The position numbers were made by a program, and so were the translations under genes. This document shows, piece by piece, positions 1 through 1,764 of a DNA stretch of 6,320 nt; positions within the stretch are counted from its first letter, which is position 1, and each line of letters starts with the position of its first letter. The notes beneath the pieces are model-generated. The model had not been told where the DNA came from, searched no databases, and was given only the letters and a program-made list of their open reading frames with translations. Origin of the DNA: Synergistota bacterium (GTDB lineage Bacteria > Synergistota > JAGHAJ01); contig JAGHAJ010000034.1 in NCBI GenBank assembly GCA_021161545.1, positions 1 to 6,320 of the forward strand. The letters run 5' to 3'.

Positions 1-122
1 ACAATGTAACGATGAAGGTGAGTTTGATAAAGCCGATAGCGTTAGAGAAGGGGTTGCGGTTTGCTATAAGAGAAGGTGGAAGGACAGTAGGTGCTGGTGT
101 TGTCACCGAAATAATAGAATAA
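1..122 (+). CDS. tuf: Elongation factor Tu, C-terminal end (partial)
   Basis: The reading frame enters from the left edge (first full codon at position 3) and gives 39 residues before a TAA stop at 120-122. The end reads [20 protein letters not shown] followed by [10 protein letters not shown], the conserved last strands of EF-Tu domain III. EF-Tu is the GTPase that delivers aminoacyl-tRNA to the ribosome in the cytoplasm. The GTPase domain lies outside the window, so nothing can be said about its nucleotide-binding motifs. The next gene, rpmG, starts 13 bases after the stop, which fits co-transcription and matches the common bacterial order tuf-rpmG-trnW. The family call is very secure from the C-terminal signature and the neighbours. 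Confidence 0.96.
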
Positions 123-135
123 TGGAGAGATAAAA

Positions 136-288
136 ATGGCGGCAGAAGTAGTAACACTTATGTGTACAGAATGTAAAAATAGGAACTATACTACCTATAG
201 AAACAAGAAGACAAATACCCAGAAATTAGAGCTAAGGAAGTTCTGTCCTGTGTGCGGTAAACACACCCTCCATAAAGAGATAAAGTAA
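136..288 (+). CDS. rpmG: 50S ribosomal protein L33, zinc-binding form
   Basis: This 50-residue protein has the usual length of L33. It starts at ATG 136, preceded by a GGAGAG ribosome binding site at 124-129. It carries two CxxC pairs, Cys10/Cys13 (MCTEC) and Cys37/Cys40 (FCPVC), which in this family bind one structural zinc ion. This is therefore the cysteine-containing (C+) version, not the zinc-free paralogue that some bacteria express under zinc limitation. The middle is rich in basic residues ([16 protein letters not shown]), typical of the family and suited to 23S rRNA contact near the tRNA exit site. It lies between tuf and tRNA-Trp with 8 bases to the tRNA, so all three are probably one transcript. 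Confidence 0.97.
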
Positions 289-289
289 G

Positions 290-381
290 CTGGCATAGGC
301 CCGTGGCTCAATTGGCTAGAGCACCGGACTCCAAATCCGGGGGTTGCAGGTTCAAGTCCTGCCGGGCCTGCCAGTTTTTTT
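290..381 (+). terminator. tRNA-embedded intrinsic terminator of tuf-rpmG-trnW
   Basis: CTGGC at 290-294 is the exact complement of GCCAG at 370-374. These pairs stack on the tRNA acceptor stem, separated only by a two-base bulge (A295, T296), giving an interrupted helix of about 12 pairs. It is followed at once by seven T (375-381). A GC-rich helix ending in a T run is the layout of a Rho-independent terminator, with the whole tRNA as its apical part. The pairing and T run are direct observations; the terminator role is inferred. It would separate the translation operon from nfeD. The pairing would also mask the tRNA CCA end until processing. Confidence 0.6.
297..373 (+). tRNA. trnW: tRNA-Trp (anticodon CCA)
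   Basis: A complete cloverleaf can be read. The acceptor stem is AGGCCCG (297-303) with CGGGCCT (363-369), the discriminator is G370, and the CCA end is encoded at 371-373. The anticodon stem is CCGGA/TCCGG (324-328 and 336-340), enclosing loop CTCCAAA with anticodon CCA at 331-333, which reads the UGG tryptophan codon. The T stem is GCAGG/CCTGC (346-350 and 358-362) with loop TTCAAGT. The D arm has GGCTC opposite GAGC with TTGG in the loop. The gene begins 8 bases after rpmG with no room for its own promoter, so it should be cut from the tuf-rpmG transcript. Bases on both sides extend the acceptor stem (see the terminator entry). Confidence 0.98.
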
Positions 382-429
382 ATGCCTTTTGCTATATTGA
401 ATTTGGCAGGTATAAAAATACCTTCCCCA

Positions 430-438
430 TGTTATAAT
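430..438 (+). promoter_or_regulatory. Extended -10 promoter for the nfeD operon
   Basis: TG at 430-431, one base, then a perfect TATAAT at 433-438 form a consensus extended -10 element for the housekeeping sigma factor. No good -35 box lies 16-18 bases upstream (a TTGGCA at 403-408 is 24 bases away, too far), but extended -10 promoters can work without one. Transcription would begin near 444-446, leaving a very short leader of about 15 bases before the GTG start at 460. The element sits in the loop of an inverted repeat. The sequence match is direct; promoter activity is inferred. Confidence 0.6.
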
Positions 439-443
439 AGTAT

Positions 444-450
444 GGGGAGG
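444..450 (+). promoter_or_regulatory. Ribosome binding site that fixes the nfeD start at GTG 460
   Basis: GGGGAGG lies 9 bases before GTG 460. Two upstream in-frame ATG codons (382 and 442) are poorer: 382 directly follows the T run and has no Shine-Dalgarno site, and 442 overlaps this one. The GTG start also gives a clean signal peptide. Confidence 0.7.
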
Positions 451-459
451 TATTTAAGA

Positions 460-1764
460 GTGGGGAAATATGTGTTGCTTCTTTTGCTTTTCTTGTATCC
501 TTCTTTTTGTAGTGCATCTTCCATTGTGTATATTTCTAAGATAAATGGCTTTATAAATTCCATTACTGTGAAACATGTAACGAGTGTTATAAAATCAGCG
601 GAAAATAGCAGCGGAAAGATTGTGATATTCTTAATGGATACACCTGGAGGACTATTAGAGTCTGCTCGGCAGATTGTCAAACTCTTCTTGTCATCGAAGG
701 TTCCAATAGTTGTCTTTGTGTATCCGAAAGGTGCAAGGGCAGCTTCGGCAGGTACATTTATAGCAGCATCCGCAAATGTGATTGCTATGTCTCCTGGAAC
801 AGTTATAGGTGCAGCACATCCTGTAAGTATAAGTGTATCACATATTAGTGCGGATACCAAGAAAAAAATTGTAAACTATTTGGTTGCATACATACGAGCT
901 ATTGCAAAGGATAGAAACAGACCCTTTGAATGGTTTGAGAATGCTGTTAAAAACAGTGCTACCTTGACGGCAGATGAAGCATTTAAGAGACATGTTGCGG
1001 ATTTTCTGGTGAGCGATGTTGGTTCTCTTCTAAAAAAGCTGAACGGATACCCCGTGGTTGTAAATGGTAAGAAACTATATTTAAATACAAATGGTGTGGA
1101 AAAGAAAATATACAGTATGTCATGGGATGATAAATTTTTGCATGCAATAGGTAACCCCAATATGGTGTATGTGTTGCTTTTGATTGCGTTTTACGGGATA
1201 ATATTTGAACTTGCAAGCCCGGGTGCCATATTTCCCGGTGTTGCAGGAGCAATCGCGCTATTGTTGTTCTTATTTGCTCTTCATATAATACCTGTAAACT
1301 CTGTGGGAGTTGCCTTAATAGTCTTGGCTATAATACTGTTTATAGTGGATTTAAAGGTTCCATCGCATGGAATACTCTCTGCGGGGGGAATAGTATCTCT
1401 GTTATTGGGGTCATTTATGCTTGTTGGTAGTAAGAGTTCTCCTATGGTTTCTGTCTCTATCAGTCTTATATTTGGGGTGGCTGGAGCTACGGCTGCATTT
1501 TTTGTCTTTGCGCTTTCTAAGGCAATTGTGGCTCAAAGAAGAAAGGCAGTATCAGGAAAAGAGGGTATGATAGGAGAGATGGGGTATGTAATTGAGTGGA
1601 ATGATAGAGGTGGAGTTGTCCTTGTGCATGGGGAGAGGTGGAATGCAGTAGCGGGAAGGGGTGTGTATACCTTAAAGAAGGGCGACAGGGTAAGGGTAAA
1701 AGGGATAATAGAGGGATTAACGCTTGTTGTTGAGGAGCTAAAGGAGGAGATAGGTGATGGATAG
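460..1764 (+). CDS. nfeD: Long-form NfeD membrane-bound serine protease (ClpP-class, 1510-N type)
   Basis: The product has 434 residues from GTG 460. A hydrophobic signal or anchor (about 4-19, [17 protein letters not shown]) leads into a ClpP-fold protease domain (about 20-215). The likely catalytic serine is Ser96 in [10 protein letters not shown] and the likely general base is Lys136 in [13 protein letters not shown], matching the Ser97/Lys138 dyad of Pyrococcus PH1510. The oxyanion-type MDTPGG motif is at 60-65. Residues about 235-352 hold four to five membrane segments, and 366-427 form the C-terminal NfeD OB-fold domain. Archaeal relatives cut the hydrophobic C-terminus of their stomatin partner. 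That partner, a slipin, follows with an overlapping start, supporting the same role. It is the first gene of a five-gene operon. Length and domain order are normal for the long NfeD class. An ATG at 382 would add 26 residues but is disfavoured. Confidence 0.93.
1743..1749 (+). promoter_or_regulatory. Ribosome binding site for the slipin gene, inside nfeD
   Basis: GGAGGAG lies 7 bases before ATG 1757 and only 4 bases before an alternative GTG at 1754, so ATG 1757 is preferred. The site is within the last codons of nfeD, which suggests translational coupling. Confidence 0.7.

Follow-up and report, generated by a model that had tools for sequence, protein, structure and literature searches.

Gene organization at the nfeD locus

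The window analysed here spans contig C73 from end to end (6320 bases). The draft genome to which it belongs (G000) is 82% complete, has a coding density of about 95% and comes from an uncultured, probably heat-loving bacterium. The contig opens inside tuf and carries, in order, the 3' end of tuf, rpmG, trnW, nfeD, a slipin gene, two DegT-type aminotransferase genes and ispD; the other strand carries a fucose-isomerase-like gene. The features that matter for the analysis all lie on the forward strand:

1..122, + strand: 3' end of tuf (EF-Tu), recognized by its C-terminal reading
136..288, + strand: rpmG (ribosomal protein L33), an open reading frame matching PF00471 (E 2.6e-23)
297..373, + strand: trnW (tRNA-Trp, CCA anticodon, CCA encoded), found by ARAGORN; Rfam tRNA, 71 bits
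375..381, + strand: T7 tract directly behind trnW, from the sequence and the fold of 285-392
390..398, + strand: possible second extended -10 box, TGCTATATT, with one mismatch, upstream of the hairpin; an RNA started at about 405 would carry both arms
408..423, + strand: small competing hairpin, AGGTAT-AAAA-ATACCT, -4.4 kcal/mol by RNA folding, which also uses the left arm
416..430, + strand: left arm of the hairpin, AAATACCT (416-423), bulged T424 and CCCCAT (425-430), from the sequence, repeat searches and folding
430..438, + strand: extended -10 box TGTTATAAT in the loop, with no good -35 box, from the sequence and motif counts
442..455, + strand: right arm of the hairpin, ATGGGGAGGTATTT, composed of ATGGGG (442-447) and AGGTATTT (448-455), from the sequence, repeat searches and folding
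446..450, + strand: Shine-Dalgarno (SD) sequence of nfeD, GGAGG, in the right arm, 9 nt before GTG 460
460..1764, + strand: nfeD, NfeD1b type, matching Pfam PF25145, PF24961 and PF01957
1754..2545, + strand: slipin/stomatin gene (SPFH, Band 7), the partner gene overlapping nfeD, matching PF01145 (E 1.3e-40)

According to Pfam, the nfeD product combines a ClpP-like N-terminal domain, a membrane domain and the NfeD C-terminal domain. Its most likely start codon is GTG 460, which opens a plausible signal peptide; upstream of it the frame continues without a stop past ATG 442, a codon that no SD precedes. Behind trnW, the terminator candidates were limited to the hairpin (tail TATTTAAG) and the T7 tract. 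The latter, together with an extended trnW acceptor stem (about 287-294 / 370-377), possibly forms a weak terminator, but a T9 tract is also found behind trnW in the relative L205, where secE comes next.

An extended -10 box in the loop of an inverted repeat

The initial annotation described an inverted repeat of 14 pairs, interrupted by a single bulged T, that surrounds a consensus extended -10 box and holds the nfeD ribosome binding site in its right arm. Sequence reading and repeat searches recovered each of these elements: 416-430 faces 442-455 in Watson-Crick pairs throughout apart from the bulged T424, an exact TGTTATAAT occupies 430-438, and GGAGG lies at 446-450. T430 is both the first base of the box and the last base of the left arm. 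The feature had been drawn from 416 to 460, of which the hairpin takes up 416-455; the end at 460 merely brings in the start codon.

From the spacing, nfeD transcription is predicted to start at about 445, inside the right arm, and ATG 442 would be absent from this RNA because the start lies past it. The motif TGNTATAAT occurs 236 times in the genome versus 62 times for its reversed control (about 4-fold enrichment), and most of its one-mismatch forms are less enriched. Many TGNTATAAT sites precede a gene by a few dozen bases, and the motif often gives very short leaders; at L124:15553 and L099:4950, short-leader promoters likewise have an SD almost at the predicted 5' end. This enrichment and the frequent very short leaders make the loop promoter of nfeD credible, and an RNA from about 445, GGGAGGUAUUUAAGA-GUG, would therefore be ordinary in this genome. 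A second TGNTATAATNNTATG site (C40, L044) was rejected: it falls within a gene coded on the other strand and lacks a hairpin like that of nfeD.

Stability of the hairpin and the role of chance

In the computed RNA fold, four weaker inner pairs are added on top of the 14, giving 18 pairs and -19.7 kcal/mol at 37 °C (z = -4.4; none of 200 shuffles equalled it). The SD at 446-450 was fully paired in the folds of both 374-480 and 414-457. Only tRNA was found among the Rfam families above the gathering score, and none matched the hairpin.

Stem statistics were taken from about 815 kb of sampled stretches of G000. Stems with at least 14 Watson-Crick pairs and at most one interruption were observed 10 times, compared with 1.1 +/- 0.9 in dinucleotide-shuffled copies, an excess of about 9-fold. 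Because stems of this quality exceed the shuffled expectation, the inverted repeat is probably not a product of chance. About half of the other stems of at least 14 pairs are intergenic and terminator-like. Taken alone, the energy that hides the SD is less remarkable and makes a weaker case against chance, since shuffling of upstream DNA predicts energies as low at about 2-4 of the 647 gene starts; a C-rich stretch fortuitously complementary to the G-rich SD is nevertheless highly improbable, as 14 Watson-Crick pairs with one bulge are expected 1.1 times per 815 kb anywhere and this stem coincides with a promoter.

Position of nfeD behind trnW

The relatives compared were other families of the phylum, plus Atribacterota, and G000 was the sole genome of its class in the comparison. 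In the phylum relatives, trnW is followed by secE-nusG (e.g. L205 and L209), and nfeD lies behind radA, with frames that overlap or abut and with no promoter or hairpin there. In G000, nfeD-slipin is found behind tuf-rpmG-trnW, the slot of secE-nusG in the relatives; searches of the draft bin found neither nusG nor rplK. No second tRNA similar enough for a chimeric join at trnW was found in the genome (best match 78% over 54 bases), which makes such a join less likely. In its new place nfeD would need its own promoter, and insulation might be helpful, which explains the arrangement without proving it.

A proposed switch of nested promoter and ribosome binding site

We consider it plausible, at somewhat below an even chance, that the hairpin is a nested promoter/ribosome-site switch in a cellular gene, following the logic of T4 gene e. 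The proposal builds on features shown by the sequence and its analysis: the inverted repeat with its SD and promoter box, the computed folding, and a genome-wide enrichment of promoters of this type. The extended -10 box in the loop would start the nfeD mRNA near 445, three bases into the right arm, so that the leader would open with the SD and measure about 15 nt. The left arm ends at 430 and is missing from this predicted RNA, which would be translatable for that reason. RNA arriving from tuf-rpmG-trnW would carry both arms and bury the SD in the 18-pair stem, so that nfeD translation from upstream-started RNA would be lowered.

At 37 °C, exposing the SD was calculated to cost 12.3 kcal/mol in RNA from 374 versus 6.2 kcal/mol in RNA from 445, a difference of 6.1 kcal/mol. 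Amino-acid composition is used to estimate growth temperature by the IVYWREL rule, and this estimate, from rough gene models, indicated that the organism seems to be thermophilic, at about 67 °C. At 65 °C the hairpin weakens to -8.7 kcal/mol and, as a result, the long-versus-short difference shrinks to about 2.5 kcal/mol (5.1 versus 2.6 kcal/mol for RNA from 445). At the likely growth temperature, damping by at most tens-fold would be expected rather than complete silencing. The start site, the read-through, the effect size and selection for the switch are the parts of this reading that we infer.

The nfeD promoter ranked first among 81 short-leader promoters in the complementarity of its flank to the SD, and 7 of the 6480 mismatched pairings matched it. 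Over the 81 promoters as a whole, there was no excess of flank/SD complementarity (mean -7.43 versus -7.29 permuted). Moreover, SD-hiding hairpins were not in excess at the 647 gene starts (43 versus 47.4 at -8 kcal/mol or lower). A genome-wide class of such promoters was therefore rejected. The idea that the long RNA is silenced was partly borne out: it held for the anatomy, for the pairing of the SD in the computed fold, for a physically sound mechanism and for the precedent of T4 gene e and I-TevI; it did not extend to general use in the genome. The possible promoter at 390-398, upstream of the hairpin, also counts against the switch.

Two further layouts were observed in this genome. At about 826-856 of L092 (C17), a like but weaker layout combines the arm ATCCTTCC, TGTTATTAT in the loop and the arm GGAGGGAT with the SD. 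At about 140-172 of L126 (C245), the native short leader upstream of a membrane signalling-type gene has its SD wrapped in a hairpin (TTAGCATCCTGAAATAGGAGGTGCTAA).

Comparison with known systems

In the transposase genes of IS10 and IS50, read-through RNA folds over the ribosome binding site, and RNA from the inside promoter does not. The likeness to nfeD is that the long RNA hides the site and RNA from the internal promoter leaves it free; the nfeD locus differs in being a cellular operon with no transposase and no insertion-sequence ends. No transposase gene was found in the window, whose genes are nfeD, slipin, the two DegT-type genes, ispD and the fucose-isomerase-like gene, in addition to tuf, rpmG and trnW. 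In phage T4, a hairpin hides the SD of gene e (lysozyme), soc, 49 and I-TevI in long RNA started upstream (PMC3014915). For gene e, RNA from the promoter next to the ribosome binding site lacks the 5' strand of the hairpin and is translated well, and 100-fold less lysozyme is made from the long transcripts (PMC3014915). The hidden SD in long RNA and an RNA from a proximal promoter that lacks the 5' strand are shared with nfeD, where the latter is predicted. T4 uses a temporally switched phage late promoter, whereas the extended -10 at nfeD belongs to a cellular gene for which no temporal switch is known. Additionally, the T4 case was shown by experiment, whereas the nfeD case, in a probable thermophile, is known from sequence and computed folds.

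Operator, terminator and thermosensor readings of the hairpin

The dyad over the -10 box had also been put forward as an operator. A dimeric regulator would then bind it and control transcription of nfeD-slipin, with the SD in the arm by crowding; we regard this as unlikely. The 815 kb contain two inverted repeats with 12 pairs or more across an exact extended -10 box, versus 0.24 expected, and SPFH/NfeD genes are tied to envelope stress in other bacteria. Besides the nfeD repeat, the other of these two, at L131:4054-4084 (C108), is a perfect 14-bp AT-rich palindrome, TATTTCATATTATA-TGA-TATAATATGAAATA on the minus strand, with an extended -10 box at its centre; the gene that follows looks like a metallo-beta-lactamase/flavodiiron-type one. 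This palindrome looks like an operator and leaves the SD outside its arms; therefore, promoter palindromes unrelated to the SD do occur in this genome, which favours the operator reading. The nfeD dyad shares with such operator palindromes its position over the -10 box but differs from them in its one-base bulge, in its lack of recurrence and in the arm that doubles as SD. The bulged T displaces one half-site by a single base and so breaks the exact symmetry; an RNA stem would tolerate this better than a symmetric protein site. No other AATACCT...AGGTATT was found in the sample, and CCCCAT(7-15)ATGGGG occurs at five places genome-wide; their spacers are unrelated, and none of the others holds a promoter box. 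A recurring operator motif was thus rejected, the dyad being absent at other promoters, and no regulator gene is adjacent; an operator with a single site would be compatible with this.

On the minus strand of L097 (C22), at about 150-200 from its start, an 11-bp inverted repeat, AACAAATCTTG / CAAGATTTGTT, flanks an extended -10 box; the SD that closely follows belongs to a gene resembling one for a LIV-type ABC substrate-binding protein.

The hairpin might instead end, pause or process the tuf-rpmG-trnW RNA, with the nfeD promoter and SD nested inside it in this densely coding genome; as an account of the hairpin this is improbable. Most strong hairpins outside genes sit at gene ends, many of them without a good U-run (tails TAAAGTGA, TTATCAGA and TACAAATT), so the nfeD hairpin may still act as a terminator. 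Here the tail TATTTAAG follows the last G-C pair, and in L206 and L207, relatives in which trnW appears to be operon-final, a hairpin with T7-8 lies directly behind trnW. However, the 8-base tail contains four T, partly within the stem, the hairpin was missed by the terminator scan, and its loop is a promoter box, unlike those of other gene-end hairpins. The roles are compatible: the same hairpin could end part of the transcripts and conceal the SD in the others.

On the minus strand of L148 (C53), at about 9440-9496, a terminator hairpin with a T6 run abuts an extended -10-like box (TGGTAAAAT), and its right arm can pair with the SD, so that terminator, promoter and ribosome binding site lie within about 60 bases.

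It is very doubtful that the hairpin regulates translation, for example as a thermosensor, in an nfeD mRNA that natively starts further upstream, at about 405 (TGCTATATT), with the loop -10 box secondary or silent. In the sample, the motif TGNTATATT, the type of the box at 390-398, was counted 89 times and its reversed control 40 times (about 2-fold), and the nfeD mRNAs of Atribacterota may have a hairpin over the SD, preceded by an extended -10 box. Against this, the loop box is a better match than that at 390-398, and the Atribacterota hairpin is unlike the present one in sequence, with covariation in just 1 of its 8 pairs. In the Atribacterota stretches L197-L200, L211, L213 and L214, the extended -10 box is followed by a C-rich/purine-rich SD-overlapping hairpin about 45 bases before nfeD.

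Possible implications for gene insulation in compact genomes

Returning to the nested switch, a fuller account would be that a housekeeping operon is insulated from the strong tuf-tRNA transcript by the nested hairpin, which was acquired as nfeD moved behind trnW and works at high temperature; we offer this tentatively, as rather less likely than not to hold in all its parts. If it is true, a cellular gene would employ a form of insulation against read-through that is known from T4 and from insertion sequences. Translatability in a thermophile would then be set just by where transcription starts. It would also suggest a simple way of shielding rearranged genes from strong neighbours in very compact genomes.
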